Shown: positions 1 to 33,989, numbered from the stretch's first letter. The stretch is DNA of 38,411 bases from Bacillota bacterium (GCA_013178415.1 JABLXA010000020.1:1-38411), one strand, 5' to 3'. The notes: a model not told the origin generated them from the sequence alone. Made by a program: numbers and translations.

Positions 1-519
1 GATCCCAAGGGTGTCGAATAATGCTGAGATAAGAGGAGCAGGTCCTGCATGGAATATCTTTAAGGATGAAACCATTGGAAACACCCCTGCCCCCAGTATA
101 CACGGAAGCAGGGGAAAGTACAAGTAAATATTTACCTTATAATCCTATAAATGTAACATTATCACTGGAAATATCTCTCCCTTATCTATGACCTCAGAAA
201 ATGCTCCTTCATACTCCGAAAGGGTGCGAAATGTAAGATGAAGGAAAAGCCAGTCAAAGACAGACGCCACGCTACCTGCCTCGACGATGGTCACGAGCTC
301 GTTTACGCTCGCATACCGCCAGAGCTGGTTGTACATCCCGAATATGTAATAGCAGATAAGCCTGATAGATGCCAGGATCGGAAGCTTTCGTATGAAGATC
401 AGGAGGTATTGCTCCGGGAGGGTGAATTCAAAACGCACAAGAATGGACAAAAGTCCCGCGACCACGATAAGCCCGAGGTCGCACGCTATATGGACGACCG
501 TTTTGACGCTTCGGCTCAT
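1..519 (-). pseudogene. CapD/PglF-like membrane domain, interrupted fragment
   Basis: The first 124 codons match the N-terminal membrane domain of CapD/PglF/FlaA1-type nucleotide-sugar 4,6-dehydratases. There are hydrophobic segments near residues 8-28 and 45-65, then the family-typical FGMYNQLWRYASV stretch. The ATG at 519 has an AGGGTGA site seven bases upstream. The reading ends at a TAG at 145-147, but the same frame stays open and hydrophobic to the window edge. No NAD-binding Rossmann domain follows, so this is not a working dehydratase within the window. The sequence after about residue 85 no longer looks like CapD, so a frameshift or a join to another membrane gene is possible. It lies downstream of a PLP aminotransferase, the usual partner in UDP-4-amino-sugar (bacillosamine-type) synthesis. 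I am confident of the N-terminal homology only. Confidence 0.6.
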
Positions 520-2454: not shown

Positions 2455-2997
2455 CCAATAAAATCACTCATCGAAGAATCCCTTGAAGAGTTCTGCGACC
2501 GCCCTGCCCTCTCCTTTGTCATCGCCTCATCAACCGTAACGGTGATAGGTAAAGCGTCACCCGGCCTGGCACCTTTGGGAAGGGCTTCCCGTGAGAGGTT
2601 AAACATTGTGTTCGCTGGTCCCTCAATAACTGCCTAATCGCCCTTGAATCGGTCTGGGTGTCTACGGTGACGCTCCCAAAATCCTGAAGGGGATGGAATT
2701 CCCGCGCGACTTTCAAAAAGGACATCGGCGTGCACAGATTTCTTCCGCAAGGCCCAGCCCTGTCGGGTCGCTACACCCATAACCTATTAACATTATTCGA
2801 TTCGACGAATATCGCAATTACCCTTTCTATGAGAGCGGAGGTCGCGGCTCGATATGTTCTTCCGCCCATACTTAAGCCAAATCTAAATTGCCTTGCCTAT
2901 AGTTTCTGCATCCATGGATCAGAATTTCTGACTTCGGCAGGAACAGTCAGGATTTATAAGGGTCAGCCAGGATGCCTGTACAAATGGAGGCTTGCTG
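2455..2997. other. Gene-free, probably decayed stretch
   Basis: I find no convincing gene here on either strand. The open frames are short, overlap each other on opposite strands and show no motif I recognise. Together with 3078-3422 this is about 1 kb of likely decayed sequence between hemerythrin and the CBASS effector. Confidence 0.4.
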
Positions 2998-3077
2998 CTA
3001 CTGTCTTCCGCAGGCCCTCGAGCAAAGTTTGAGGGAGCCAGCCTGATAAGTCCTAATAGTTCTCGAACATTCTCCTA

Positions 3078-3422
3078 TCACAGGAACAGCCGCAGTAGCG
3101 CCATGAGCGTCCGGTCGTCGCAGACATGGTGCGTGTTCCTCACCCACGCGGCTCCGTTCCGTCCAATAACGAATATATCGAAGGTCATAGCGCTTGAACT
3201 CAGCAAACACGCAAACCTTTGCGAGGCACCCCCGCGCACCCGGCTGATCTAGATCAGCCGGATCGACGCGGCGAGCAAAAGATAAAACCCCGGGTCGATA
3301 GCGCATACACGCTCGATGGACCGCACCTCGGCCTCTACAGGGGTTGTGAATTCCGACAGAAGATACAGCAACTCGGACGAGCTTAGTGTCAGCCCTAAAA
3401 AAGATGTGTATCCCCTTATGAG
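3078..3422 (-). pseudogene. Unrecognised degenerate reading frame with an internal TAG
   Basis: One minus-strand frame reads as protein-like for about 57 codons (containing SSELLYLLSEF and CAIDPGFYLLLAAS). It stops at TAG (3249-3251) and continues protein-like for another 57 codons (containing MTFDIFVIGRNGAAWVRN) to a TGA. No plausible start codon with a ribosome binding site is visible at its head. A longer frame overlaps it (2998-3501), but its composition, rich in Arg and Cys with no pattern, looks like a shadow. I do not recognise the family. The internal stop lies at the centre of a perfect palindrome. Remnant of a gene is the best guess. Confidence 0.3.
3240..3261. repeat. Perfect 22-bp palindrome
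   Basis: Two perfectly complementary 11-base arms (CCGGCTGATCT and its reverse complement) meet with no spacer. The centre CTAG creates the in-frame TAG of the surrounding minus-strand frame. There is no T-run after it on either strand, so it is a weak terminator candidate. It could be a protein-binding site or the scar of an insertion. Confidence 0.6.
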
Positions 3423-3460
3423 TCAGCGACGCATCCGCCTTTGGCGCGAGCCTCCATGAC

Positions 3461-4102
3461 TTAGGAGTCGATTTGCTTCGAGGATCTAGTCCACGTATCA
3501 TCAGGCATTGCTCCTGATGTAAGCTCGCGCCACCACAATTTGAACTTCAATAGCCATATCCAAGTATGCGGGTGATCCTCAAGGAACCTGCTAATTGCTA
3601 TTTTTACCAGATACCGCTTCTTTAGTTTCAGGAATTGCGGGCCCGGTATACGCGGCAAGTCCCCCGTATCTAGATATTGATCTTCGATGGCTTTCAAATC
3701 CTGTTCACTAACAGTATCACGTGAGTCCAGGTTTCGGATAGCATAGAGCACCCTCGTATAATGGTTTACTGCCTCCATATGGCGGGCCGCATGAGAGGAT
3801 GGTTTCGAAATCGCCAATATGAGTCCGGCGAAGAAGTTTACAACTGCGATCAGGGCTTTGAGCCACTTAAACCAATCTGGAGCCAAATGCAAAGTCCTGG
3901 CTATGAAATCGTCAGAAACGAAGGTCAATGATAAAAGGAGACACGATGTGAATAAAGAGCCATAGTAAACCGTGTTCTGCTTATGGAGGTAATGGTCAGC
4001 CAGTTGTCCATGCATGTCAGCCTGCATCTCGGCCTTCTTTTTGATTTTGGCGAGAATTTCACCGAGCTGCTTTGGGGGCGAAGACGAGTGCATGCTGCTC
4101 AC
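3461..4102 (-). CDS. SLATT-domain two-helix membrane effector of CBASS
   Basis: A protein of about 213 residues with a soluble charged N-terminal helix, two hydrophobic segments (around YYGSLFTSCLLLSLTF and LIAVVNFFAGLILAI) and a soluble C-terminal half. This is the layout of SLATT-family 2TM effectors, thought to damage or permeabilise the inner membrane when a cyclic nucleotide signal is made. The start is best set at GTG 4102: it overlaps the upstream CD-NTase stop as GTGA and has AAGGGG eight bases before it. An ATG at 4120 in the same frame is the alternative. Being last in the CBASS gene row and translationally coupled to the CD-NTase supports the effector role. The family call rests on topology and context, since I recognise no catalytic motif. 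Confidence 0.8.
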   Translation of the reverse strand: MSSMHSSSPPKQLGEILAKIKKKAEMQADMHGQLADHYLHKQNTVYYGSLFTSCLLLSLTFVSDDFIARTLHLAPDWFKWLKALIAVVNFFAGLILAISKPSSHAARHMEAVNHYTRVLYAIRNLDSRDTVSEQDLKAIEDQYLDTGDLPRIPGPQFLKLKKRYLVKIAISRFLEDHPHTWIWLLKFKLWWRELTSGAMPDDTWTRSSKQIDS

Positions 4103-5025
4103 GTGAATATCCCCTTCCATTGATCGATATTCATAAGGCGGTCAGCATTGCTCAAACGGTTTGCCAGCCTTTCTAAGGCTGCACTACATTGTTGACGCAA
4201 TAGGTTGTTAGCCCCTCCCAGGTACTCATCCACATGAACCGATTGCCCAGTAGAATCGGACATCGGTGACAATACGAGTTTGGGAGCCTGGCGGCATAGG
4301 TGAAGAAGCATATCCTTATAAGTCATTCGTCCGCTATAGGTGTCAAAGGCTTTAATAGCCAGCGCCTCGATATGATAGCCGGAGAGCCGGACTTTTTCTG
4401 AAAGAGACTCGTTTAGGCCCTTAAAGAGTTTAATTACCGGAACCAGCTTTTGATTGCAAAGTCGGTTGGCTTCTGTCAGTTTCTCAGCGAATCTTGCCGG
4501 TTTTACGACATTACTCCAGCCATTTCCATCGGCCCGGGCAATTTTGACCCCTGTTTTAGTGCTTAACGCGGGCAGTAGCTGAATCTCGTGTCCGGTGCTA
4601 GAAAATCTCACGGTAACTGCCAATGCCCCGACCCGGATCTCGGTATTCGGGAGTCGTCTCCGCAGTCGTTCAGCGAAATACTCTTTCACTTGGGCTGGGG
4701 AGGCGTTAGTTAACGATGTGTTGTTGATCCTTACTAACATATCGATATCGCTTAGGCCGTTAACATATGTGTGTTTACTGATGGAACCGCCGAAGATCAG
4801 ATCTACGGCTCCTTCAATATCTTTATCTAGAGCCCTCTTGATAGTATCTAGATGCTGTTGTATCTCCTCTACCTTTCTATCATTATAGTTAGATAGAAGG
4901 TCCAGCAAGTATTGGTTAATTTCGACTTCGTATTGCGCCCTCTGTTCATTCGAATGCATTTGATTCAAAAGCTTATCAACATCAGGGGGTTTCCCCCAAT
5001 TGTACCACCCACCAGAACCACCCAT
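4099..5025 (-). CDS. CD-NTase (CBASS cyclic oligonucleotide synthase)
   Basis: A 308-residue nucleotidyltransferase of the cGAS/DncV-like superfamily, which makes cyclic di- or trinucleotide alarm signals after phage infection. The active-site GGS motif is at residues 79-81 and the first metal pair at D93 and D95 (SDIDMLV). The third acidic position falls in GHEIQLLPAL (145-154), where the usual xDxxP aspartate appears as Q149, with E147 close by. A C-terminal helical domain follows. The N-terminus is Gly- and Trp-rich (MGGSGGWYNWG), unlike most CD-NTases, and may be a substrate tag for the Cap9 protein encoded upstream. The ATG overlaps the cap10 stop as TGATG, with AGGAGGTG six bases before it. 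The nucleotide product cannot be told from sequence. Confidence 0.9.
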   Translation of the reverse strand: MGGSGGWYNWGKPPDVDKLLNQMHSNEQRAQYEVEINQYLLDLLSNYNDRKVEEIQQHLDTIKRALDKDIEGAVDLIFGGSISKHTYVNGLSDIDMLVRINNTSLTNASPAQVKEYFAERLRRRLPNTEIRVGALAVTVRFSSTGHEIQLLPALSTKTGVKIARADGNGWSNVVKPARFAEKLTEANRLCNQKLVPVIKLFKGLNESLSEKVRLSGYHIEALAIKAFDTYSGRMTYKDMLLHLCRQAPKLVLSPMSDSTGQSVHVDEYLGGANNLLRQQCSAALERLANRLSNADRLMNIDQWKGIFT

Positions 5026-6029
5026 CAGACCACCTCCTGAAATTCAACATTGGCAGACCCGATGAGGGCCTGGATCTGCTTCTGATGATCCAGTTTCAGC
5101 TCGAGCACCCCCCAGTCGTGGCTGCGTGCGAAACGTCCCATTAAGGCCTGGGTCCTGGCCAATTGCTGTATGTTCCGAATGGAGGCTGCAGCATGGATAG
5201 CAGTGTATCCTTGGGTCCACAGGCCCTCCGTAAGCGCATAACTGTTATAGTAGACAGCCGTGCCTTCATTGTAGGCCAATCGTAGCCAAGACAAGCCATC
5301 GAAGATGTCCGCTCCGCAGAGGAAGTATACCAGTACAGACAGCGGATCGAGGCAGCCGAGCACATGGATAGGGATGTCAATACTCTGCTCGTAAAAGGCT
5401 TTCCTTATCTTGACTAAGCTGCGGCACCGTTCCAGGAAAGATGATCCAAGTTCCTTTTCAACCACCCCGACGACATCGAACTCTCCTAGTTCCTCGCAGC
5501 ACTCAACGATGCTCTTGACGTCTATAGAGCCAGAGTCCTCAGTCAATGGCTTAATCAGAAAATCCCTTGCGTAGTCCCTTGGTATTTTGGAAAAGAAGCG
5601 TTGCGCCTTGCCGATTTGGTCAGATAATGCAGCACGAGTATCATAGCTGATTATTACGAGAGAAGAAAGTGGCTTGAGAGATAGGATAGTTTCCAGATAG
5701 CGATCTTCTGACCATTCCTTAGATTGGTTGGTGACGCCATAGAAATCCGACAGATCCTGGTTGGTTCCCACCTCGAAACCACCGCTATCTACAAACAGGA
5801 TCTCGGAGCAGTAAATTTTCTCGGCGTCCAAATGACCATAGCGTATATCATAGGCACTGATTAGAGACGTGTCAGGGGTATACTCACTGAGTACCCCGTG
5901 GATCTTGCTGATCTCGGGAAATCCGCGACTTGAGAAGCTGGGCACAAGCAGCGGGGTTTTTACTTTAATCGTCTCGATGCGTCTCTCTTTGCACAAATCA
6001 CTCAGTTTCAAGTAATCTCCCCCGATCAT
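5025..6029 (-). CDS. cap10: TGT-like enzyme, type IV CBASS Cap10
   Basis: About 334 residues of the tRNA-guanine transglycosylase fold. Visible are the substrate-pocket DSGGF motif (D81-F85, in ILFVDSGGFEVG), the glycine-rich HVLGCLDP (222-229) and the nucleophile segment GADIFDGLSW (239-248), matching the GxDxFD of TGT. The C-terminal CxCxxC zinc site of bacterial TGT is absent, so this is not the housekeeping queuosine enzyme. It sits between a QueC-like gene and a CD-NTase, the gene set of type IV CBASS. The ATG at 6029 overlaps the end of cap9 by 32 bases. A TTG at 6011 with GGGGGAG upstream is an equally good start. The frame extends to 6161, but that part overlaps cap9 and is not family-like. 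Its exact role in the defence pathway is inferred. Confidence 0.85.
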   Translation of the reverse strand: MIGGDYLKLSDLCKERRIETIKVKTPLLVPSFSSRGFPEISKIHGVLSEYTPDTSLISAYDIRYGHLDAEKIYCSEILFVDSGGFEVGTNQDLSDFYGVTNQSKEWSEDRYLETILSLKPLSSLVIISYDTRAALSDQIGKAQRFFSKIPRDYARDFLIKPLTEDSGSIDVKSIVECCEELGEFDVVGVVEKELGSSFLERCRSLVKIRKAFYEQSIDIPIHVLGCLDPLSVLVYFLCGADIFDGLSWLRLAYNEGTAVYYNSYALTEGLWTQGYTAIHAAASIRNIQQLARTQALMGRFARSHDWGVLELKLDHQKQIQALIGSANVEFQEVV

Positions 6030-6552
6030 GGCAAGACGGGCACTGACCACAAGGGTGATCGCCGTTGCGTTCACAGCTATAAGTAAGATGAATAGGGACC
6101 CCATACTTTTTGCAGTAGTGGAAGATCTCCGGCTTAGTCCACTGCAAGAAAGGGGCTTCAACTGTCACAAGTCCCCCATAATAGCCGTCTAATATTCGTT
6201 GCATATCTTGCAAGAACCCAGAGGAACAGTCATAGTACGGAGTCCCAGAATGTATTCCAATTGCGACCCTGTTTGACCCTGGCGCAAGGGAAGAACATGC
6301 AGCCAAAACGAGAAGTGCATTCCTGCAAAGGAATTCGTCGCCCCTCATACCCGGAGTAGGCTGAATCCTAGCCATCGTCAGAGGAATGTCATAGTAGGCT
6401 GCAACAGCGTACGCGGACGCCATCTCCCGCTCTGCAGTGGGTTGCCCATAATTGACGTGAAATCCCAATACGGCTATACCCTGGCTTAGGTATAGGTGAA
6501 CAAGAGCAGTCGAATCGATGCCTCCGCTAAGCAAGATATTCACCGAAGCCAA
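5998..6552 (-). CDS. cap9: QueC-like PP-loop ATPase, type IV CBASS Cap9
   Basis: A 184-residue PP-loop enzyme like QueC, which in queuosine synthesis turns carboxydeazaguanine into preQ0 using ATP and ammonia. The PP-loop LLSGGIDST (residues 7-15) and a four-cysteine zinc site (C160, C168, C171, C174 in YSCERNGDHPCGQCPSC) are complete. It is shorter than housekeeping QueC (about 220). It lies directly before the TGT-like gene and the CD-NTase, which identifies it as Cap9 of type IV CBASS. From memory of a recent report, Cap9 conjugates a 7-deazaguanine base to the CD-NTase N-terminus. The TTG start has AGAGGTGG six bases upstream, and the gene begins 38 bases after the FkbH-like gene, so it may share that transcript. 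Confidence 0.87.
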   Translation of the reverse strand: MASVNILLSGGIDSTALVHLYLSQGIAVLGFHVNYGQPTAEREMASAYAVAAYYDIPLTMARIQPTPGMRGDEFLCRNALLVLAACSSLAPGSNRVAIGIHSGTPYYDCSSGFLQDMQRILDGYYGGLVTVEAPFLQWTKPEIFHYCKKYGVPIHLTYSCERNGDHPCGQCPSCHDRGRLLETE

Positions 6553-6590: not shown

Positions 6591-8579
6591 TCAGTTACTC
6601 ACGTCCGCATCATTCAGAACCGCCACAAATGGGGAAGGCGAGAGAGTTAGATCCGCTAGATCCAGGCACCACACCGTCCGGCCATCACTGCTGGTTGACC
6701 CAGTTGCCCCTTTGAGCTTTTGGCCGGGGATGATGGCAGCATCTGCACCTATCTCATCTGCCGCCGCTGCAGCGACTTGCTCTGCATTGACACATGGCGC
6801 CACCTGCACAAAACCAAGCGATGGATAAAGATCAGCAACAACCCCATTCTTGCGGGTCGGAATATACTCCGCCATCAGCCGGTCAAAACCTAATCTACGA
6901 GCCTCCATGGCTAAGTAATATACGAAAGTTTGCTCCACGGTGCGGCCCATCACCCGGCAGCTCATTAGCAGACTATCGATCCAAATCATATCACCATTGG
7001 CACGCAGGATACCTACGGCAACCAGACCATTTTCCCCAAAACGGTCTTCTAGTTCAAGGCTGTAGACGTGCCACTCACCGCTCGCAATTCGTTCTCGAAG
7101 ATCCTGTTCTGTATACCGTCGGGTGGTCAAGTTGAATTGGTTGGTCTTTTGGGTGAGTTGTGCGATACGGGGCAGGGTCATGTCATTAGCCTTCGCAATA
7201 GTTGCCTTCATCTCAAGCCGGCGATAGAAATCCTCCAATGAGGCGCTTTCACTCTGGAGGACACGTCTTGCCGCCTGCTGACGATATTCCTCTCCCCGCC
7301 GCCTGTCGTCCGCTGTTATCGTCAGCGTGTCGAATACGGGGAGCGACTGCAGAAAAGCCACGAAGTTCTCCGGCTGCGCTGGCATCTGATATGCGAGGAC
7401 CTCTGGAAGAGCATCTCTAACTCGTGCAACCTCCACCGGATTATCATCAAGGAAGACGACACTGTCCATCCCGATGTTAAGTTCCTGGACGATCTCCTGG
7501 ATGTTGGTTGCCTTGTCGCGCCAATTGATGCGCATGCTGGCAAAGTGTTCGCGTCGCAATACCATATCAGGATGGCTATCGAGAACCTCCAAAGCTATAT
7601 CAGGCTCATTCTTGCTGCAGATCCCCAGAATGATACCACGCCTGTATAGGTTAAGAACCGCATGCTGAAAATCCACATATGCAGAACCCGGATATGTATT
7701 TCCAAGTTTAATGCCGCCTATGCCATCCTCGCCAATAATGCCGCCCCACAGAGTGCCATCCATATCTAGAATCAAGCACTTGCGGGTCAATCCCGTAAGA
7801 TGAATCAAATACCGGAGATATTCATCCGCAAGGTGAGAGAGTTGGTGAGGATTGACCGGGATTCGAGCCATATGCCACATTCGTGAATCAATCCAGTTAA
7901 GTTTCCCGTATCGACTACTTAATTCATCATAGCCAAACACATACACACCTGGGAAAGAGCGGCATATTTCACGTAGGGAATCGTTTAAATCGCGAATCGC
8001 CCGGATCTGCCCACCGGTATCCTGATAATCAAAGATCCCGTAAGAAGGGATTGCTGGCGTTTCAAAGTTATGCACCAAAATCGTTGCGTTAAGCCTCTTA
8101 CGCAGCTGACTCAACAGCATTTGAAACGTCGAAAGAACCTGCGTATTGAGGTTCGCAATCTGCTGAGAAGACAGCGCCGTGTAGTCATAAAATAGAGCGG
8201 GAGCCACGTCTACCAAACGTACTGCTAGAATGACCACGTCGGGCAGGAAATGATATAACTGACTGTTTGGATCAAGGATCTCCTGCTGATACTGACCATA
8301 GGGACCCATGCCTATCTCGGCGTTTATGCCCGCCAGCAGACACTTGACCCGGAGGATCGGAATAAGCTGCTCTATAGTGGCAGAACGCAGGAAATAGATG
8401 CGTATTGGTTTGAGCGGAAGCCCAGATAAATCAGCGTGGTCCAGAAGATTGTCAGCCGCCAGGTAATCACTGATATTGCCATCATGCATTAGAGACCACT
8501 CCAGTTCCCGCAGAAGCGAGAGTGGCTTTGAGGTTCGGCCTAATTCACAGATAAGATCCTTGAATCCCTCCATGTTCAT
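6591..8579 (-). CDS. FkbH-like HAD-IIIC family protein
   Basis: A 662-residue FkbH-type protein. The N-terminal 260 residues form the SGNH-like region of this family. The HAD domain begins with CLILDMDGTLWGG around residue 270 and later has VVFLDDNPVEVARVR. A GNAT-like C-terminal region follows (about 460-610, with QLTQKTNQFNLTTRRYT typical of FkbH). In polyketide pathways FkbH proteins take 1,3-bisphosphoglycerate, remove phosphate and load a glyceryl group on an acyl carrier protein. The neighbouring ACP, KAS III and VOC genes fit that role, so this probably makes glyceryl-ACP or a related acyl-ACP. The ATG overlaps the VOC gene stop as ATGA. It ends the acyl operon just before the CBASS genes. 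Confidence 0.88.
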   Translation of the reverse strand: MNMEGFKDLICELGRTSKPLSLLRELEWSLMHDGNISDYLAADNLLDHADLSGLPLKPIRIYFLRSATIEQLIPILRVKCLLAGINAEIGMGPYGQYQQEILDPNSQLYHFLPDVVILAVRLVDVAPALFYDYTALSSQQIANLNTQVLSTFQMLLSQLRKRLNATILVHNFETPAIPSYGIFDYQDTGGQIRAIRDLNDSLREICRSFPGVYVFGYDELSSRYGKLNWIDSRMWHMARIPVNPHQLSHLADEYLRYLIHLTGLTRKCLILDMDGTLWGGIIGEDGIGGIKLGNTYPGSAYVDFQHAVLNLYRRGIILGICSKNEPDIALEVLDSHPDMVLRREHFASMRINWRDKATNIQEIVQELNIGMDSVVFLDDNPVEVARVRDALPEVLAYQMPAQPENFVAFLQSLPVFDTLTITADDRRRGEEYRQQAARRVLQSESASLEDFYRRLEMKATIAKANDMTLPRIAQLTQKTNQFNLTTRRYTEQDLRERIASGEWHVYSLELEDRFGENGLVAVGILRANGDMIWIDSLLMSCRVMGRTVEQTFVYYLAMEARRLGFDRLMAEYIPTRKNGVVADLYPSLGFVQVAPCVNAEQVAAAAADEIGADAAIIPGQKLKGATGSTSSDGRTVWCLDLADLTLSPSPFVAVLNDADVSN

Positions 8580-9025
8580 CCCCTCACCAGTAATTCCTTC
8601 GGACTAGCCTCTGGGTCGGCCTCTACCAACTCGACCAAAGAACGGTCACGTAGATACATAAACATAACGGAATGCCCGGCGAACGCAGCCGCCGGCGCTG
8701 GCCCAAATACGGGTATCGCGCCGCCCGTTCGCCATATCTTCCTGACCTTCTCAATATCTTGCGTTACATAGCAGACGTGGTGGAGTCCACCTCCATATCG
8801 TTCCAGAAAGTTTGCTACTGGCGCGCTATCGCTGTATGGAGCAACTAACTCCACTAACACTCGATTTCCCGGCAATTCCATGAAACAAATCTGAGCCTGC
8901 TGGATTGTATCATCTACGACTGGCCCAACCTTGCTTGCTCTGAATAATGTTTCATATGTCCGTAACCCCTGAGAAAGGTCCTTTACTACCACGCCAACAT
9001 GGTGCATCGGCAACATGTCCTTCAC
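8576..9025 (-). CDS. VOC family protein, methylmalonyl-CoA epimerase-like
   Basis: A 149-residue vicinal-oxygen-chelate protein with two beta-alpha-beta-beta-beta repeats. The likely metal ligands are in MHHVGVVV at the start, LVELVAP in the first repeat, GLHHVCY in the second, and LVELVEA at the end, the pattern of methylmalonyl-CoA epimerases. It probably acts on an acyl thioester, epimerising or otherwise changing the carbon next to the thioester, perhaps while the acyl group is on one of the ACPs. The GTG start overlaps the ACP stop as GTGA, so the genes are translationally coupled. The true substrate is unknown; a role in methylmalonyl-CoA metabolism is unlikely given the neighbours. Confidence 0.82.
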   Translation of the reverse strand: MKDMLPMHHVGVVVKDLSQGLRTYETLFRASKVGPVVDDTIQQAQICFMELPGNRVLVELVAPYSDSAPVANFLERYGGGLHHVCYVTQDIEKVRKIWRTGGAIPVFGPAPAAAFAGHSVMFMYLRDRSLVELVEADPEASPKELLVRG

Positions 9026-9279
9026 CCCGCGACCCCCTTACTCACAAGGATCTTGCGGGCAGCTCTAAAACCTCCATCACCGATTTCCCCAATTTCTTCT
9101 GGACTAAAAGAAACCCCGAAGCGTTCCTCAATGCTGACAATTAAATTTAGGTGCTGCATAGAGTCCCAATTGGGAACATTGCTGGGGGTGAGATTGTCGT
9201 AGACTTCTTCGGGTTTCAAATTGAATACATCGCAGAATACCTGTCTTAGCTTTTCCTCGAGACTTTCTACCTGGGCCAT
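9022..9279 (-). CDS. Acyl carrier protein (second of two)
   Basis: About 85 residues with the carrier-protein fold. The phosphopantetheine serine is in PNWDSMQHLNLI, where DSM replaces the common DSL. The ATG at 9279 is chosen because AGGAGTG lies nine bases upstream and the family sequence starts there; a longer frame to 9357 runs into the KAS III gene and looks non-homologous. It is packed between KAS III and VOC with overlapping ends. It is presumably activated by the AcpS of this operon and carries the acyl group made by FkbH or KAS III. Confidence 0.88.
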   Translation of the reverse strand: MAQVESLEEKLRQVFCDVFNLKPEEVYDNLTPSNVPNWDSMQHLNLIVSIEERFGVSFSPEEIGEIGDGGFRAARKILVSKGVAG

Positions 9280-9287
9280 TCCATTTA

Positions 9288-10355
9288 TCACTCCTGAAGA
9301 ACATGAACTACTCGAGAGACTGTCACCGGACCAATTGTGAGGGCAGCTCCCGCCCAAGCGTAGCCGACACCGAAACCGAGAAGTAGTACTTTTTGGGGGG
9401 CAGATGAAATGCTATCGCCTATATCGTCGGCCAAAAGGAGGGGAATACTAACTCCCGAGGTATTTCCGTAGCGCTGGATGTTGATCGGGGCTTTCTGCGG
9501 TTGAACTCCGATTTTGCGAGCCAGGTGCTGAACTATCATTTTGTTAGCTTGATGAAAAAGAACCCAATCAAGTTCATCTTTTGTCCACCCATGCTGGGCC
9601 AAAGTAGTCTGCACCAATCCCGGGACCTCACGGATGGTAAAGTTGAAGACTTCCCAACCATCCATATAGAATTCGCGTGGAGACCGTGCATTCCCCTCGG
9701 GATCCGTTACCCTGGTATACGACTCGGGTCCACCGCCCCGATCACGGAACCCCCCCGCCGGTATGATCAGGCTCTGAACACCTCGCCCATCACTACCGAG
9801 GACAAAGGATGATGGTTCAGCCGCAGGATCCCATTCCAGGGCAGCCGCAGCACCAGCATCCCCAAACAAAAGGCTCGATCTGTCCTGAGGCGATGCCACC
9901 TGGCTAAGGGTATCCCCGACTAGTAAAAGGACACGTTTGGCTGACCCACCACTGACAAACTGACTTGCAATCCAGTATCCATAGACAAATCCGCTACAGC
10001 CCATAGCAACATCGAAGGCAAAACAAGATTTGCTTAGGCCTAATACCGCATGAACAACACTAGCATCATTAGGTAAGATATAGTCAGGAGTTTGTGTGAC
10101 AACGATAACTCCCTCGATGGACTCGGGGGGCCAGTTAAGCCCCTCCAGAAGATGCTTCGCTGCAGCGACACAGAGATCGGACGTTGTCTGGCCAGGCTTT
10201 GCACGGTAAAGAGTTTCTATCCCGGATAACTTCGCTACCTTCTCGGCTTCCTCCAGTGGAAATGCACTGCCAATGTCTGCGACGGATAGCGCTTTTCCCG
10301 GCACCGAACATACGATCCCTCGAAGCGCTACATTCTTCAATGTCACGCTTGGCAT
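9288..10355 (-). CDS. Beta-ketoacyl-ACP synthase III family protein (FabH-like)
   Basis: A 355-residue thiolase-fold enzyme with the complete KAS III triad: C120 in AMGCSGF, H268 in LFHQANKMI and N298 in RYGNTSGVS. FabH joins an acyl-CoA starter to malonyl-ACP; relatives in tetronate and sugar-acyl pathways transfer or condense unusual acyl-ACPs. It lies between two ACP genes and beside an FkbH-like gene, so a special-purpose enzyme is more likely than the housekeeping FabH, which normally sits in a fab operon. All residues needed for condensation are present. The ATG at 10355 follows the first ACP stop closely, with AAGGGG upstream. Confidence 0.92.
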   Translation of the reverse strand: MPSVTLKNVALRGIVCSVPGKALSVADIGSAFPLEEAEKVAKLSGIETLYRAKPGQTTSDLCVAAAKHLLEGLNWPPESIEGVIVVTQTPDYILPNDASVVHAVLGLSKSCFAFDVAMGCSGFVYGYWIASQFVSGGSAKRVLLLVGDTLSQVASPQDRSSLLFGDAGAAAALEWDPAAEPSSFVLGSDGRGVQSLIIPAGGFRDRGGGPESYTRVTDPEGNARSPREFYMDGWEVFNFTIREVPGLVQTTLAQHGWTKDELDWVLFHQANKMIVQHLARKIGVQPQKAPINIQRYGNTSGVSIPLLLADDIGDSISSAPQKVLLLGFGVGYAWAGAALTIGPVTVSRVVHVLQE

Positions 10356-10359
10356 TTGC

Positions 10360-10593
10360 TCATGACCCCTTTTTCGTCAGCACCAGGTCAACAAGGTCTT
10401 TAACCTTCTTGATGGTACGTATCTCTTGTGAGCTAATCTGTATACCATACCGTTCGTCTAGCATTGATATAATCGTCAGCCAGCCAATGGAGTCCCACTC
10501 TGCTACCTCGCCGACATTAGTTTCTAGAGAAATGGAACCATTAGTAATCTCCAGGGCCTCTGAAATTAAATTGAGCACATCTTCAGTTACCAC
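10360..10593 (-). CDS. Acyl carrier protein (first of two)
   Basis: A 77-residue carrier protein with the 4'-phosphopantetheine serine in AEWDSIGWLTII. This varies from the DSLxxxEL of fatty-acid ACPs and resembles carrier proteins of secondary or polysaccharide pathways. The GTG start has AGGTGA six bases upstream. Together with the second ACP it gives the operon two dedicated carriers; the two are quite different in sequence, which suggests different partners, for example one for FkbH loading and one for the KAS III product. That division of labour is inference. Confidence 0.9.
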   Translation of the reverse strand: MVTEDVLNLISEALEITNGSISLETNVGEVAEWDSIGWLTIISMLDERYGIQISSQEIRTIKKVKDLVDLVLTKKGS

Positions 10594-10615
10594 AAGTTAT
10601 CACCTCATTTTGAGA

Positions 10616-11257
10616 TTACCTTGGCAAGTCTAACACCTTCGCAGGAACCCCAAGGACCGTCTTTCCTGCACCTACACGCCTGACAACCACACTCCCCGCT
10701 CCAACAGTAGAGAAGTCTTCGACCACAGCGCTGGGCAAGATAGACGCATGGCTTCCCATGAACACTCCCCGGCCAAGGCGGGCATGGCCCGTCACATCGC
10801 AATATGAGCTTAAAGTGCATCCATCGCCTACAATAGCATCATGCCCTATAGAAACGAACCGGTTAAGAGAAACAAAGTTGCCCAGTATTGAATCAGCAGT
10901 AAGTCCAGCCTGGTACATCAAAATGTTCCCAATACCTATTTTGCATCTTGGGCCTATCTGTGCTGTGGGGTGAATTAGATTGATGAACCTTGCTCCCTTG
11001 GCCAGCAGATGTTCGCAAATCTCCAGTTTACGGCGAGGTGACCCAATGGCACAAATGTAAACGTATTGGTCGCTAGGTTGATGCCCCATAACCGGACCCA
11101 CGACAGGGATGTCTATACCTTTCTCTCGGAGGTGCGTTTCAGCATCCTGTGCGTCATCCAAAAATCCACCGATGGTCCACTCCACTCCGTAGGCCGGGTT
11201 CTCCAAGGCCGCAGCAAGCACCTCACGGCCAAATCCACCAGCACCGATAATGATCAA
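10616..11257 (-). CDS. NeuD/PglD-like left-handed beta-helix acyltransferase
   Basis: A 213-residue enzyme with an N-terminal Rossmann-like domain (IIIGAGGFGREVL, which binds the nucleotide sugar) and a C-terminal hexapeptide-repeat beta-helix from about residue 95. The catalytic histidine is probably the one in SIGHDAIVGDG, as in PglD and NeuD. These enzymes put an acetyl group from acetyl-CoA on an amino sugar. Here the setting, with two ACPs and a KAS III, suggests the donor may be an acyl-ACP carrying a non-acetyl group. The start is unclear: TTG at 11257 is weakly placed, while a CTG at 11275 with a G-run upstream would add LSHVHK. The gene follows the SDR gene with near overlap. Confidence 0.85.
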   Translation of the reverse strand: MIIIGAGGFGREVLAAALENPAYGVEWTIGGFLDDAQDAETHLREKGIDIPVVGPVMGHQPSDQYVYICAIGSPRRKLEICEHLLAKGARFINLIHPTAQIGPRCKIGIGNILMYQAGLTADSILGNFVSLNRFVSIGHDAIVGDGCTLSSYCDVTGHARLGRGVFMGSHASILPSAVVEDFSTVGAGSVVVRRVGAGKTVLGVPAKVLDLPR

Positions 11258-11271
11258 CTTATGTACATGGC

Positions 11272-12048
11272 TCAGCTGAGGTACCCCCCATCAATTACAA
11301 GGGTGATTCCAGTCACCCAGCGGGCAGCAGGCGAAAGAAGATAAGCGATCCCATACGCGATATCTTCCGGCTTCCCTAGCCCAAGTGGGTGCCGTGCGAT
11401 ACTGCTCTCAAAGTTACTCGCACCGATCTGCGCATGTTGTTCGTGCATTGGAGTTTCTACCATGCCCGGTGCGATGGCATTCACGCGGATAGACCTGGCT
11501 GCTAATTCACGCGCCGCTGCACGGACCATAGCCACCAGACCTCCCTTGCTGGCCGAGTAAGCAACTAGACCTGGCGAACCGGATAGACCCGCAACAGAGG
11601 AAACAAAAACAAAAGATGCCCCGTCAGCTGCTACGCCTTTGGCAGCTCCGCCTTTAAGCAAGAGCATGGCTGCATCCAAATTTGGAATCATCATACTATC
11701 GACATTTTTTGAGCTCATCGCTCTGATTGGAAGAATCCGCGAAATTCCAGCGCAATGGACTAACCCATCTAGTGGACGCCCGACTTTTTCGCTCACGCCT
11801 TTGATCCAGCTAGGAATTCCATCAACCTCGCTAAGATCATATGGCTCTATGAAATGCAACTCACGGTTTTCCATCATCGAGCGCGTTTCCTCAAGCGCAG
11901 GATTCCTCCGTCCGCTAAGAATAACACGTGCACCAAGCTTACTGAGAACTATTGATGTTGCCCGCCCGATGCCTGAAGAGGCACCTGTCACCAGGACGAT
12001 CTTCCCTGATAGGCTGAACGGGTTATCCACTTCCAGCCCCCCTTTCAT
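11272..12048 (-). CDS. SDR family oxidoreductase (FabG-like)
   Basis: A 258-residue classical short-chain dehydrogenase. The TGASSGIG cofactor loop, HCAGI in place of NNAG, a catalytic serine in FVSSVAG, and the YSASKGG Tyr/Lys pair are all present, and the tail GGYLS is normal for the family. In this operon it most likely reduces a beta-ketoacyl-ACP made by the KAS III, giving a 3-hydroxyacyl group; acting on a keto sugar is possible but less likely from its FabG likeness. The ATG is at 12048. A GTG at 12030 with AAAGGGGGG upstream has the better ribosome binding site. Confidence 0.9.
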   Translation of the reverse strand: MKGGLEVDNPFSLSGKIVLVTGASSGIGRATSIVLSKLGARVILSGRRNPALEETRSMMENRELHFIEPYDLSEVDGIPSWIKGVSEKVGRPLDGLVHCAGISRILPIRAMSSKNVDSMMIPNLDAAMLLLKGGAAKGVAADGASFVFVSSVAGLSGSPGLVAYSASKGGLVAMVRAAARELAARSIRVNAIAPGMVETPMHEQHAQIGASNFESSIARHPLGLGKPEDIAYGIAYLLSPAARWVTGITLVIDGGYLS

Positions 12049-12082
12049 GGTACTTTATTTAGTAGTGAGATCCCGAACCTCC

Positions 12083-12508
12083 TTATACTAGTACCACAAC
12101 GGCCACCGCCTTGTCGCAATCATGCGAAATTGATGTCAGGCCCTCACGAACTCCCAATGCCGACATTATTTCGCGAGCTTTACCATAGAAAACAAGTTTG
12201 GGCGCTCCATCTGTGCCGCGTAATATCTCTACATCGGTCATATTGGCCACGGATAATGCCCCTGTTCCAAGCGCCTTAAGTGCTGCCTCTTTAGCCGCAA
12301 AACGGCCGGCGAGAAACTCTATTCGCCGACCCGGCGACAGAGATTCACCAATAGCAACCTCACTTGGGGTGAAGACCTTCCTTGCAAATGAAGGTGAACG
12401 ACTGAGCACGCGACTCAAACGCGCGATGTCCACCAAATCAACCCCAACCCTCATCTCCTGTTCCCATCCCGGCAATGCACTTATCCAATCACCACTTTCG
12501 ACCGCCAC
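12083..12508 (-). CDS. acpS: Holo-ACP synthase (AcpS-type phosphopantetheinyl transferase)
   Basis: AcpS moves 4'-phosphopantetheine from CoA to an apo-ACP serine. The core MRVGVDLVDIARL with the metal aspartate, the second motif GRFAAKEAALKALG and SISHD near the end are all there. The family normally starts at the MRVG methionine (12454); the frame also allows a GTG at 12508 abutting the stop of the upstream regulator, adding 18 residues. Sitting in the same operon as two ACPs, it is probably a dedicated activator for them rather than the main cellular enzyme, although it could be the only copy. Confidence 0.92.
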   Translation of the reverse strand: MAVESGDWISALPGWEQEMRVGVDLVDIARLSRVLSRSPSFARKVFTPSEVAIGESLSPGRRIEFLAGRFAAKEAALKALGTGALSVANMTDVEILRGTDGAPKLVFYGKAREIMSALGVREGLTSISHDCDKAVAVVVLV

Positions 12509-13256: not shown

Positions 13257-13871
13257 TCAGAACCCCACGCCCTTACGCCCTTTGAATTCCGGCATCGTCG
13301 CGCACCCCTCCGCGCTGATGCCTTCACGTTTTACAACCTTGACCAAAGTGAGCCAGAGGATCTTAAAATCAAGCAAAAGGCTCCAGTTGTCTACATACCA
13401 GACGTCAAGCTTGAATTTCTCCTCCCAGGTTAGGGCATTGCGGCCGTTTACCTGCGCCCACCCTGTAATGCCGGGTTTGACTTCGTGGCGCCGCGCCTGC
13501 TCGGGGGTGTAGCGGTCGAGATATTCCATCAAGAGCGGTCTTGGGCCGACAAGGCTCATCTCTCCGCGCAGGACGTTGAGAAGCTCGGGCAATTCATCCA
13601 GGCTGGTGCTGCGCAGGAACCTGCCCACAGGGGTGAGTCGGTCTTGGTCAGGGCGAAGTGCCCCCCTCTCGTCACGCGCATCGGTCATTGTGCGGAACTT
13701 GAGCATGGTAAAAGGTCGGCCATGAAGACCTGGCCGTTTTTGCCGGAACAATACTGGCGATCCCATGCTCAGGCGTACAAGAAGCGCAAGAAATATGAAA
13801 AGAGGGAGTAATAGGATTAACAATGACAGAGACGCAACTATATCGAACCCGCGCTTGATAAAGCGTTCCAT
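13257..13871 (-). CDS. Undecaprenyl-phosphate sugar-phosphate transferase (PglC/WcaJ C-terminal type)
   Basis: About 204 residues forming the small monotopic PglC-type initiating enzyme that moves a sugar phosphate from a UDP-sugar to undecaprenyl phosphate at the inner face of the membrane. There is one hydrophobic N-terminal helix (VASLSLLILLLPLFIFLALLV), then PVLFRQKRPG, the KFRTM motif, STSLDELPELLNVL with the catalytic Asp-Glu pair, MSLVGPRP, and KPGITGWAQVNGRN. The start is set at 13871, where the family begins and GGGGG lies two bases upstream; the frame extends to 13904. It lacks the extra membrane helices of WcaJ or WbaP. Nearby PglE- and PglD-like genes make a diamino-sugar phosphate a plausible substrate. 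Confidence 0.93.
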   Translation of the reverse strand: MERFIKRGFDIVASLSLLILLLPLFIFLALLVRLSMGSPVLFRQKRPGLHGRPFTMLKFRTMTDARDERGALRPDQDRLTPVGRFLRSTSLDELPELLNVLRGEMSLVGPRPLLMEYLDRYTPEQARRHEVKPGITGWAQVNGRNALTWEEKFKLDVWYVDNWSLLLDFKILWLTLVKVVKREGISAEGCATMPEFKGRKGVGF

Positions 13872-13934
13872 ATCCCCCGTCTTACCCCAAAACATTATTC
13901 GCATATTCGAAACTCAGACGTCATCCGCGATATC

Positions 13935-16193: not shown

Positions 16194-17486
16194 TCAGAAG
16201 TCGTGCCTTACCAAAGCCCTTAGATCGTCAAGTGGACATGCAAGGATCTCCTCACATATCCGCATGGCTACATGGTTAAGCCTCTCAGATGTGTTCTGAT
16301 CGACGCGGCTGTATCCATGCTCCAGGTATGAGTGATTTCGTGTCCGCAATACATCCATAAGGGCTCTTTGGGATTCCTCGCCAAGAGCCGAGCCCAAGCT
16401 GCGTAAGAGGCAAAAGCCGTTATAAAGGGAAAGCTCCCTCGGTAACTGATCGCTGCCAGACAACTTGCGGTAACTTTCGATTGTCGTAGCCTCTATCTCA
16501 TCCCACGCTGGATTCCAGGGGTTGATCTGATGTTTTAGAAGCAGACATCCCTGCACGGCCACTTCAAAGGCTCTATATGACCGCAAAACACTCTCGGTGG
16601 GCCGACTTTTGCTATAACGCCTTCTTCAATTCTCCAATATGTCCGCCACGAGTAACGGAAGATTCTCACCGTATTGGCGCTCTCGACGAAGCTTATCGAG
16701 ATCTGGTTGCTGTTTGGTCTGTTGGATTCTGTGAAGAAGATCCACAAGGGCCTCGATCTTATCAGCCGACCGGGCGAGCCGGCTAACAGCTTCAGCCAGG
16801 CTTCCGATCTCTCTGTCACCCAGAAATACCTGAGATGCTTCGTAAAGGCGGCGGAATATGCGGGTTGCACCCTTGTAGTCGAATTCATCCCAAAGATAGA
16901 GCGCTTCAGTCGCCTGGCGAACGAAACGCGCTTTGCCTTCATTTGGAAGGCGTTCCGCCAGAACTCGAGCTTCCTCGTAATATCCCTGAGAAAGTCGATT
17001 AAGGGTCTGACCCAGTATCTCCCGCGCCATAGTGCGTACCGAACGCCATGTGCTCATCGATTCATCCAGAACGCGGCCGTGCTGGTCACGGGACCTCCCG
17101 CCGACATAATCGAAGGTTAAATTGCCGATAAAGGGTGCCGTCAGCGCAGCATGCACAGCCGCGGCCGCCATAACCTTCGTCCCCGCGGTGAAATTCACTA
17201 CCATTTCATCCGCGTCAGAATGGACTCTGAATACCTCGCGAAAGACCTCAATGCACAGGTCAATGTCCTCGGGATCCTCCAGTTCCTTTGTATCCACAGC
17301 CAATCCCTTACTGGCAGCAAACTGCCTTACGCTGTTGGCAACCTCAAGAGGTGATGGCTGCTGGCCGGGGAATGGCCGACCATATACCAGGACAACGTTT
17401 GTCCCGTCAATGGCCTCGATGTCTGCTATAGATTTCCTTATCGGTTCAAGGGTATTCCCGACCGTGATAACAAAAGTTTTCTTCAT
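16194..17486 (-). pseudogene. CARF-HEPN ribonuclease (TIGR02710-like), split by in-frame TGA
   Basis: The first 286 codons carry a CARF-type Rossmann domain (FVITVGNTLEPI at the start, VVNFTAGTKVMAAAAVHAAL around residue 100) and a helical linker, as in the CRISPR-associated Cas02710 (TIGR02710) family. A TGA at 16626-16628 ends the reading, yet the same frame continues at once with family-like sequence for 143 codons. This includes the HEPN ribonuclease motif RNHSYLEH (Arg383 and His390 of the read-through product). Such proteins sense cyclic oligoadenylate and cut RNA. The ATG at 17486 has AGAGAGGTG upstream. A CGA-to-TGA change is the simplest explanation. No CRISPR array or type III cas genes are in the window. 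Confidence 0.78.
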
Positions 17487-17668
17487 CAATTTTCACCTCT
17501 CTCAGTAGCTTCCAAAAGCCAAGTGCATCCAGCGCGGCGGAACCACCGTCTGCCTTTCCAGCTTTCCTCGACAAACCTGACGAAGAACTCCTGCCCTAAA
17601 TTTATGGCTACCGCCAGCAACTCAATACGGCGCGCTGCCCAATATAGCCAACGTGATTGCGTCATCAT
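17486..17668 (-). CDS. Small frame of 60 codons, doubtful
   Basis: A 60-codon frame rich in Trp and Arg that ends in TGA overlapping the ATG of the CARF gene. It starts exactly where the WbpP-like remnant ends, has no good ribosome binding site and matches no family I know. Another frame of the same stretch reads protein-like near its end (containing SAALDALGFWKLLREV). It may be the decayed tail of an upstream gene rather than a real small protein. Confidence 0.15.
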   Translation of the reverse strand: MMTQSRWLYWAARRIELLAVAINLGQEFFVRFVEESWKGRRWFRRAGCTWLLEATERGEN

Positions 17669-18190
17669 ACTACAGGCGGCTCACCATTGAGTAGAGACGC
17701 AATGAATTTAGGGATAACCGCAGCCATACTCGGCGCCGGGGTCTTGCATTGGGCCGGAAACGTTGAAATACCATAATCCGACGGTCTTGAGGCCGTAGAG
17801 TTCATAGAAATTCCGCGCATATCATTCGTCCGCAAACTTAGCCGTGGCGTAGGACGAAACCGGCGGGGGGAACGCCGACTCCTTGGTTTTCAGCAACGGC
17901 GTTGGCACGCATACACTCACCGCATCGTCCTCCTGCAAATGGTTGAAATCAGTAGTAGGCAAGAATCTCTTCTCCTGCAATGCGATGGCAACGACCTCGG
18001 ATGGAACATCCACCACGTAGGACTCACCTCGCTGAATGCTCCCTACTCTTAGAGAATCCACCTCGAATCCAATACCCTTGTAGCTAGCCCGGCAGAACTC
18101 CATTGCAAGCGGAAGACCGACGTATCCGAGCCCCATAACTCCCAACCTGGCTGATCTTGAAAGGATCCTTTTTCTGATGAATATCAGCAT
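17669..18190 (-). pseudogene. Chimeric remnant: WbpA-like dehydrogenase start joined to WbpP-like epimerase end
   Basis: The first 107 codons match UDP-GlcNAc/UDP-Glc 6-dehydrogenases of the WbpA type: LGVMGLGYVGLPLAMEF (NAD site), GESYVVDVPSEVV, and VCVPTPLLKTK. Right after KTKESAF the sequence changes to SSYATAKFADE, the YxxxK active-site region of a WbpP/GalE-type epimerase. A TGA follows (17822-17824), then YARNFYELYGLKTVGLWYFN in the same frame, then a frameshift near 17730 into AAVIPKFIASLLNGEPP. The start keeps its ribosome site (AGGAGTTAAG before ATG). An internal deletion between two adjacent genes, followed by decay, explains all of this. No function is expected. Confidence 0.82.
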
Positions 18191-18366: not shown

Positions 18367-20286
18367 CTACGCCATAACTGTCCCGGTTGGCTCCAACCTA
18401 TAATCTGCGGGCAAGGTGGCATTAGTAAATCTGAACTCCCTCTCTTCGGGATCTACCAGGACTTTGAGCCTCATGCGGCACTCAAAACCTTCTGAGGTCA
18501 ACGAAAACTCTAATATATCCATAATTCTTGAGTAAAGGCTCCATTCTATTGCCGCGTTCCTCTGCAAAGAGTCTTTGTCCCTGACCTCGCCACGAGCGAA
18601 TGCTGATTGCACCTTATATATCCAGTCGCCAATAGCATAACTCAAATGCAACGTAGGATCTACCCTCACTGGCCGTGATGCCTCATCTAATATATCAAGA
18701 AGCTCACCATACCTATGACGAAACTGTTCCTCGCTCAATTCGACGGTCAAGAGATAATCGCGTTCTCTCTCGTAAGCCTCACTTTTTTTTGTTTCGCCTG
18801 GTGGTAGGTAGATATTCCCCGCATAACCTGACAAATAGCTCTCCAACGTCCCCCTTGATAGCAGATAGACACCGCATCGCCTGAAAGCCTCAAGGATCTT
18901 CCCAAATCTACCTATAATAAAATCTATCCTTTCGGCCTCGGTCGGCGTTAGTCTTTTGATCTCCTGCGAAATGAACCTAAGAGCAAGTAAGAATGCATAA
19001 CGGAGCTTAGGACGCTTGTCTTCATCCCTAGCTTCCTGTATCCGATGAAAGGCCTCGCAAAACTGCGGAAATGATTCACTCACTGCCACATCGGGCTTAA
19101 GCAATTCGACCCCAACGCCTCTTAGACACTCATCAATTGCTTTCTCCATTTCACCGATCCTAGACATCAAATCAACTCCGACACCCTCGTTTTGCAGGTA
19201 ATCTCGGGAACGGCAATCATACGATGTTGACTGCCTTAATCTTCCATTGAAGAGGGTATCTAGATCCGCTATGAAGGCGGCTTCAATATCTAGCTTCCTA
19301 CATAACCTGAAAAACAGATCCATCTCATCCTTACCACCGACGTCAATGATGCAACTACCCGATGCTCCTAGTAGTCTCCCTCTCTTTTCCTGTATGAGAG
19401 TAAAGATTTGCTGATCTGTGTATCCTTCCACGAAAATTGGATGGGAAGAAAAAAGAAATTGCTTCTGATTGGCATTCAACCTCGATAGGAACCGTTTAAT
19501 CTTCCACTCATCCTCTGCTTCTAGTTGATCTATATAGCTTGCAGGCCTTTGTGGATGAAAAACGATACAATGCTTCAGATCCTCTACGGTTCGGATATCG
19601 ACGAAGTAAGGCGAATGTGTAATCAAGAAGAAACACTTTTTATTGTGAGTCGGATCGACGAGGGGGTCGCCAGCAATCCGCCTAATCTCCTGAAGGAGAA
19701 AGGTCTGGAATTGAGGGTGCAAATGCAGTTCCGGTTCATCGATAATGAGGCAGTTGTATTCGTCGTCATAGAGGAAGGTCAAAAGCGTAACCAATTCCTT
19801 AAGTCCGTGGCACTCTTTTTCCTTTAGTTCGTATTCATCCCCGTGGCTAATATGCTGGAGCTTCGGTTTTAAAAATCCTCCCTCTTCCACTAGCCTGATA
19901 CGTCTTCCGAACAACTGTGAAAGGACCGCCTCAATTCTTATCCTGACATCAATTCGTTCCTTGAGGATAACAAATGCGTCGGCCGAAAGACCGTAGTCCA
20001 TTCCCCAACTCTTATAACTCGGAAACTGGCCAATATCAAGACCCCGCTCCATCTGACTATGACTAAAGCCATGATATGTCCGCCTTTCAAGACCAGTAAG
20101 ACGCTCAGCATTCAGATATCGAGGCTTCATTCCATGAGCCTGACAAATGGTCTTCAGCTTTTCGGCAAAAAGTGTCTTTCCCGTTCCGTTCGGCCCAACT
20201 AGGAAATTGACAGTCCCCCATTTATCCTTCTTGAAAATCTGGTCGCCCCATAGATATGGCAAATCAATCGTGACAGTAAGATCCAT
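18367..20286 (-). CDS. OLD-family ATPase with TOPRIM nuclease domain
   Basis: A 639-residue protein with an ABC-type ATPase split as in OLD nucleases. Walker A GPNGTGKT is at 31-38, the signature-like SHGDEYELKEKECHGLKEL at about 147-165, Walker B CLIIDEPELHLHP at 179-191, and the switch His in LITHSP near 224. The TOPRIM domain follows with E287 (IFVEGYTDQ) and the DxD pair D341/D343 (FIADLDTLF), so the metal site looks complete. The C-terminal 250 residues are helical and unfamiliar. OLD proteins cut DNA, and relatives act in phage defence (Gabija GajA, retron effectors). No GajB helicase or other partner is adjacent, so it is a stand-alone class 1 type. GAGGTGA lies seven bases before the ATG. 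Confidence 0.87.
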   Translation of the reverse strand: MDLTVTIDLPYLWGDQIFKKDKWGTVNFLVGPNGTGKTLFAEKLKTICQAHGMKPRYLNAERLTGLERRTYHGFSHSQMERGLDIGQFPSYKSWGMDYGLSADAFVILKERIDVRIRIEAVLSQLFGRRIRLVEEGGFLKPKLQHISHGDEYELKEKECHGLKELVTLLTFLYDDEYNCLIIDEPELHLHPQFQTFLLQEIRRIAGDPLVDPTHNKKCFFLITHSPYFVDIRTVEDLKHCIVFHPQRPASYIDQLEAEDEWKIKRFLSRLNANQKQFLFSSHPIFVEGYTDQQIFTLIQEKRGRLLGASGSCIIDVGGKDEMDLFFRLCRKLDIEAAFIADLDTLFNGRLRQSTSYDCRSRDYLQNEGVGVDLMSRIGEMEKAIDECLRGVGVELLKPDVAVSESFPQFCEAFHRIQEARDEDKRPKLRYAFLLALRFISQEIKRLTPTEAERIDFIIGRFGKILEAFRRCGVYLLSRGTLESYLSGYAGNIYLPPGETKKSEAYERERDYLLTVELSEEQFRHRYGELLDILDEASRPVRVDPTLHLSYAIGDWIYKVQSAFARGEVRDKDSLQRNAAIEWSLYSRIMDILEFSLTSEGFECRMRLKVLVDPEEREFRFTNATLPADYRLEPTGTVMA

Positions 20287-33518: not shown

Positions 33519-33536
33519 GTCTTTCCATCCCTTATT

Positions 33537-33986: not shown

Positions 33987-33989
33987 ATC

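Follow-up and report, generated by a model that had tools for sequence, protein, structure and literature searches.

A compact gene row for a putative acyl carrier protein-dependent N-acyl sugar pathway in a Bacillota glycan locus

Layout and integrity of the gene row

We analysed a 38,411-nucleotide stretch of DNA from a Bacillota bacterium (GCA_013178415.1 JABLXA010000020.1:1-38411; hereafter the window), in which positions 6591-12508 had been predicted to carry eight tightly packed genes of a self-contained acyl carrier protein (ACP) pathway for an unusual N-acyl sugar. The row is as described: on the minus strand, AcpS, a short-chain dehydrogenase/reductase (SDR), a PglD/NeuD-type acyltransferase, ACP1, a 3-ketoacyl-ACP synthase III (KAS III), ACP2, a vicinal oxygen chelate (VOC) protein and FkbH follow one another in that order, each matching the family assigned to it, with intergenic gaps of at most 34 bases and 4-base overlaps between ACP2 and VOC and between VOC and FkbH. 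These genes belong to a longer minus-strand row that runs from 13904 to 6591, no gap exceeding 85 bases, and begins with a phosphoglycosyl transferase (PGT) and a MarR-like protein. The features of the row, and the aminotransferase of the same locus, are:

13257-13904, minus: PGT (Bac_transf), first gene of the row; PF02397, E 1e-69; 70% identical to its counterpart in locus L008 and 83% to that in L112
12509-13171, minus: MarR-like winged-helix protein with a Rossmann-like C-terminus; PF01047, PF08484; a 28% identical homologue holds the same place in L008
12083-12508, minus: AcpS; TIGR00516, 82.6 bits (cut-off 59.8); second copy in the genome, and AcpS also in the L095 row
11272-12048, minus: FabG-like SDR, proposed 3-ketoacyl-ACP reductase; PF13561, E 6e-48, and PF08659
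10616-11257, minus: PglD/NeuD/VioB-type N-acyltransferase; TIGR03570, 164.3 bits (cut-off 160.8)
10360-10593, minus: ACP1, adjoining PglD; PF00550
9288-10355, minus: KAS III of the glycan-locus type; PF08541/PF08545
9022-9279 (or 9022-9291 from an alternative GTG start), minus: ACP2, loader-type; PF00550, a weak match of 22.8 bits (cut-off 20.8)
8576-9025, minus: VOC-fold protein of the FkbH-associated type; PF13669
6591-8579, minus: FkbH-type glyceryl-ACP synthase (HAD-IIIC), 662 aa; TIGR01686, 296.6 bits (cut-off 146.65)
619-1773, minus: DegT 4-aminotransferase (PseC/PglE-like); TIGR03588, 344 bits, under the cut-off of 423.5; split from the row by antiphage genes

All eight reading frames are intact with zero internal stops, and so are all the catalytic residues tested in KAS III, FkbH, VOC and both ACPs, ACP1 and ACP2 each carrying the DS motif. 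The 3.57 Mb genome assembly represents a sparsely sampled class, whose relatives in the phylum resemble Bacillota judging by their genes. It has separate housekeeping copies, acpS on contig C9 and fabH on contig C2, the latter inside a plsX-fabH-fabD-fabG-acpP-fabF cluster (gene names assigned by eye), and these further copies rule out that AcpS and KAS III of the row are the sole housekeeping ones. The genes of the row are dedicated, its AcpS and KAS III being extra paralogs; this, together with the occurrence of related rows in other genomes, makes the row more than a chance assembly.

Condensing enzyme, reductase and acyltransferase

The KAS III of the row has a complete catalytic triad (C120, H268, N298). 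In our tree it clusters with the SDR-adjacent KAS proteins of glycan loci (support 99/100), apart from housekeeping FabH and from the KAS proteins of tetronate-type clusters, which are distant from it and devoid of the catalytic His. A KAS scan of genome contigs yielded three loci only. An SDR of the window type adjoins a related KAS in L095, L096 and L003. VioB (7txp) is the best solved-structure match of the PglD-type protein, and in the window a FabG-type reductase, an ACP and a NeuD/VioB-type acyltransferase share one row. The assignment of ACP1 is less clear, because this protein scores with the profiles of both FkbH-adjacent ACPs (60 bits) and PglD-row ACPs (48 bits).

The proposed glyceryl-loading module

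The window FkbH, the sole one in its genome, carries the D272-x-D274-x-T276 motif and C541, and these four residues are invariant among 18 FkbH proteins. ACP2 scores 67 bits with FkbH-adjacent ACPs, 47 with AMP-ligase-adjacent ACPs and 21 with PglD-row ACPs, which by profile makes it a carrier of the loader type.

The VOC protein retains its metal ligands (H9, E59, H83, E132). It had been proposed to set stereochemistry, and this fits both the preserved metal site and its repeated occurrence with FkbH and ACP; what it is not is a methylmalonyl-CoA epimerase. That candidate is ruled out by a TIGR03081 score of 60.3 bits, under the cut-off of 114.95, by the missing second epimerase acid (five FkbH- or ACP-linked VOC proteins have I, V, R, L or A at that position, just before the Q in the E/D-Q-K-V motif) and by the absence of methylmalonyl-CoA mutase, PF01642 giving zero matches in the genome. 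VOC proteins of the window type stand beside FkbH in 5 of 25 FkbH loci, where about 0.19 would be expected (Poisson P ~2e-6, the expectation being an estimate from a generous genome-wide density), and in 0 of 24 non-FkbH loci. The profiles were built without the row under test, though from such VOC proteins, and 24 of the 25 loci were chosen by FkbH alone, the Sinorhizobium meliloti locus having come up through both FkbH and VOC searches. The VOC profile returned mostly ordinary epimerase-like proteins from 398 genomes and is too broad to serve alone. VOC-bearing loci are not resolved into a single clade of the FkbH tree.

Four of the five FkbH-VOC loci have no KAS III nearby, and three of those four carry a membrane-bound O-acyltransferase (MBOAT) in place of PglD; VOC therefore probably acts on the FkbH product itself. 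Its most likely role would be that of a glyceryl-ACP C2 epimerase, since a metal-bound alpha-hydroxy thioester would suit epimerisation at C2. Such a role could be tested in FkbH-linked VOC proteins at large and, if it is true that they epimerise ACP-bound 2-hydroxyacyl groups, the same VOC type serves FkbH-ACP O-acylation with MBOAT in S. meliloti and others. On pSymB of this species (L073, 9938-15817, and L074) the order is VOC-MBOAT-ACP-FkbH, FkbH consisting of two overlapping reading frames in strain 1021 and of one in ml46. L073 thus shares FkbH, ACP and VOC of the same type with the window, whereas it has neither KAS nor PglD and its transferase is a membrane O-acyltransferase.

Related rows and known systems

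A search for the same gene row in other glycan loci, as the original prediction had advised, retrieved related rows in L008, L095, L096, L080 and L077/L078. L095 (genome G304) reads PGT-KAS1-ACP-KAS2-SDR-PglD-AcpS-DegT; L096 (G266) combines the ACP/KAS/SDR/PglD-type core with a malonyl transacylase and a phosphopantetheinyl transferase; L080, from Burkholderia glumae, reads vioA-KAS-ACP-KAS-SDR-acetyltransferase. In the Parabacteroides glycan loci L077/L078 a PglD-type gene is followed by an ACP, a second, loader ACP, a KAS III of the same clade as ours and an SDR, as in the window, but the starter would come from an AMP-binding ligase rather than FkbH, and there is no VOC.

Among the closest known systems is the viosamine island of Pseudomonas syringae pv. 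tabaci, which encodes VioB, KAS III (vioS), a reductase (vioR) and acp; flagellin loses its N-3-hydroxybutyryl viosamine when vioR or vioB is deleted, as established by genetics and mass spectrometry (PMC3927599). Island (vioA, vioS, vioB, vioR, acp) and window have in common a KAS III, a FabG-type reductase, an ACP, an acyltransferase (213 aa in the island) and a DegT-family aminotransferase, whereas the seven genes of the island include no FkbH, VOC, second ACP or AcpS. The aminotransferase is of the dTDP-viosamine type in the island, where it lies next to the acyltransferase, and PseC/PglE-like in the window, where it lies within the same locus but is split off by a cyclic oligonucleotide-based antiphage signalling system (CBASS); in L008 it is next to PglD.

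The SDR-PglD-ACP-KAS arrangement is hence an already known kind of cassette, seen in Burkholderia, Parabacteroides and Bacillota-like loci. FkbH, VOC and ACP2 occupy the spot that an AMP ligase or a second KAS takes in other loci and, as the rest of the arrangement largely has precedent, only this starting module appears to be new. Our search of the open-licence literature on FkbH with O-antigen, lipopolysaccharide or polysaccharide turned up no account of N-acyl sugars being made through FkbH.

Another close parallel comes from genome G004, of the same class, in which L008 reads PGT-KAS-ACP-VOC-FkbH-3HCDH-PglD-DegT. The PGT and DegT ends are orthologous to those of the window, and the KAS-ACP-VOC-FkbH order and PglD are shared. 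Unlike the window, L008 has one ACP, no AcpS and, for the SDR, a 3-hydroxyacyl-CoA dehydrogenase (3HCDH), which belongs to another family; its KAS is of FabH ancestry, falling with housekeeping FabH at a weak support of 88/62 and not within the glycan-locus group, whose support is strong. Given these differences in KAS ancestry and dehydrogenase family, a condensing enzyme and a reductase have probably been joined to ACP-VOC-FkbH-PglD twice, and L008 would be an independent second case of FkbH-VOC-ACP accompanied by KAS, a dehydrogenase and PglD.

A further set, in L007 (5851-10152), groups FkbH and ACP with a transferase of the AAC(3) type and a DUF4910/DUF2172 protein amid flagellar genes, and resembles in kind the Campylobacter jejuni genes Cj1295 (aminopeptidase) and Cj1296/7 (N-acetyltransferase).

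Proposed pathway and alternatives

What the sequences show is which genes are present, that their active sites are intact, that the genome has extra paralogs and that the logic of the row is conserved. In the pathway that we propose, AcpS would activate ACP1 and ACP2, and FkbH, judging from its family, would use 1,3-bisphosphoglycerate to load ACP2 with a glyceryl unit, on which VOC would act while the unit is ACP-bound. KAS III would then condense the glyceryl starter with malonyl on ACP1 into a 3-oxo-4,5-dihydroxypentanoyl chain, to be reduced by the SDR to 3,4,5-trihydroxypentanoyl; that such an extension takes place is suggested by the presence of KAS, SDR and a second ACP. PglD would move the acyl chain onto the amino sugar that the DegT aminotransferase makes together with a PglF-type dehydratase, and PGT would finally put the acylated sugar on the lipid carrier.

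We hold the parts of this scheme with different confidence. In general terms, it is quite probable that an N-acyl group other than acetyl is made on an ACP and transferred by PglD, and this is where the self-contained pathway of the original prediction finds support: SDR, PglD, ACP and KAS correspond to a cassette of the viosamine-island kind, DegT lies beside PglD in L008 and a PglF-type dehydratase is encoded in the genome. The reading that we favour, with a likelihood not far below even, is that the row is a dedicated acyl-ACP pathway through which a bacillosamine-type UDP-sugar receives a hydroxylated acyl group other than acetyl at its 4-amino group, by way of glyceryl on ACP2, KAS III, SDR and PglD. 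Taken for itself, a chain both primed by glyceryl and extended is a tentative proposal, short of an even chance, and the most specific version, that is, a glycerate-primed, two-carbon-extended polyhydroxy acyl group on a surface amino sugar, made with a free-standing KAS III and a VOC that epimerises an ACP-bound 2-hydroxyacyl group, is rather doubtful. Several observations weigh against extension from glyceryl or against this use of PglD. KAS III could be primed by acetyl-CoA instead; FkbH-ACP-VOC is found also without KAS, so that extension is not inherent to this trio; ACP1 is of no clean PglD-row type; and the use of an ACP donor by PglD is putative. In addition, C. jejuni carries an FkbH gene (Cj1302) with fabH2 nearby (PMC7099621), yet the acid on its flagellin pseudaminic acid is unextended di-O-methylglyceric acid (PMC3068675), a counterpoint tempered by the fact that genes beyond Cj1295 are not established for this acid.

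The row could alternatively comprise two modules, KAS III, SDR, ACP1 and PglD making and attaching 3-hydroxybutyrate from acetyl-CoA and malonyl units as in viosamine, while the glyceryl product of FkbH, ACP2 and VOC goes elsewhere through another enzyme. Both halves do occur apart, the KAS-SDR-ACP-PglD set without FkbH in L095, L096 and L080, and FkbH-ACP-VOC without KAS and with other transferases such as MBOAT; the window row, however, has no second acyltransferase of the MBOAT, Gcn5-related (GNAT) or AAC(3) kind, KAS, ACP2, VOC and FkbH lie close together, either overlapping or a short gap apart, and in L008 one ACP and one PglD serve everything. We consider this division unlikely, though worth serious attention. 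An attachment of unextended glycerate by PglD, giving an N-glyceroyl 4-amino sugar with KAS III and SDR working outside that step, has a chemical precedent in the O-antigen of Pragia fontium 97U124, which contains 2-acetamido-2,4,6-trideoxy-4-(D-glyceroyl)amino-D-glucose (PMC10609480); the C. jejuni acid and the L007 set, with its AAC(3)-type transferase and DUF4910 protein next to FkbH-ACP, speak in the same sense. Since it leaves KAS III, SDR and the second ACP roleless though they are kept intact in the row, this outcome seems improbable.

Plain N-acetylation of the sugar by PglD from acetyl-CoA, the remaining genes making something unrelated, would agree with the naming of TIGR03570 after sugar acetyltransferases, but PglD-type genes are repeatedly linked to ACP, KAS and SDR across several phyla and the row has a dedicated AcpS, making it very improbable. 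As for a small-molecule pathway of the tetronate or methoxymalonyl-ACP type, FkbH, ACP and a KAS III-like protein also adjoin one another in the tetronate-type clusters L039 and L081. The KAS proteins there are devoid of the His that the window KAS possesses and lie far from it in the tree, which rules out the tetronate pathway; those clusters contain an E2-type acyltransferase and a polyketide synthase (PKS), whereas the window row has no E2-type acyltransferase, FkbI or PKS. Neither the O-methyltransferase nor the acyl-CoA dehydrogenase of the methoxymalonyl-ACP cassette (FkbGHIJK) is found in the window row, and we give this class of product hardly any credence.

Taken together with its relatives, the row suggests a modular rule in which a common ACP/KAS/reductase/PglD core is combined with a variable starter module (a second KAS, an AMP ligase, or FkbH and VOC). 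With such a rule, one could predict from a gene row which acyl groups a surface glycan carries.

Sugar side, recurring ends and neighbouring genes

DegT scores best with PseC and is 85% identical to the DegT directly after PglD in L008 (over the 128 residues available at the contig end); of the 17 genomes of the class, 13 have an orthologue. Beside it, at the contig edge, lies an N-terminal PglF-like fragment (window 145-519). A full-length homologue of PglF, 76% identical, is encoded on contig C4 of the same genome (G000:C4:14843-16711) and a broken copy on C17, and G003 encodes a PglF-type protein some 1.5 kb away from DegT. PglF and DegT would fit a bacillosamine-type route to a UDP-4-amino sugar, the PglF-type dehydratase pointing to a UDP-sugar as acceptor where the viosamine island uses dTDP-viosamine.

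The PGT and DegT ends recur in relatives while the genes between them vary: L121 has a formyltransferase, a PIG-L-like gene and PglD, and L112, from a genome of the same order, has an ATP-grasp ligase and a haloacid dehalogenase (HAD) hydrolase between the orthologous ends (2967-5435), possibly another module for the same sugar. With recurring ends and changing middles, the row has the look of an exchangeable module, one among several that would decorate the same kind of 4-amino sugar.

Elsewhere in the glycan locus, RfbH, which exceeds its cut-off, and a CDP-glucose 4,6-dehydratase-like protein, which falls short of its own, at 31325-35042 suggest a CDP-3,6-dideoxyhexose pathway, and a 122-aa N-terminal fragment of a UDP-glucose/GDP-mannose dehydrogenase (17822-18190) is likely a remnant. 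The CBASS between FkbH and DegT, directly behind FkbH, is of type IV (QueC, TGT, CD-NTase and 2TM effector; 3461-6552), and a CARF-HEPN-like protein (16626-17489) and an OLD/GajA-like ATPase-Toprim protein (18367-20286) lie amid the glycan genes of the window.

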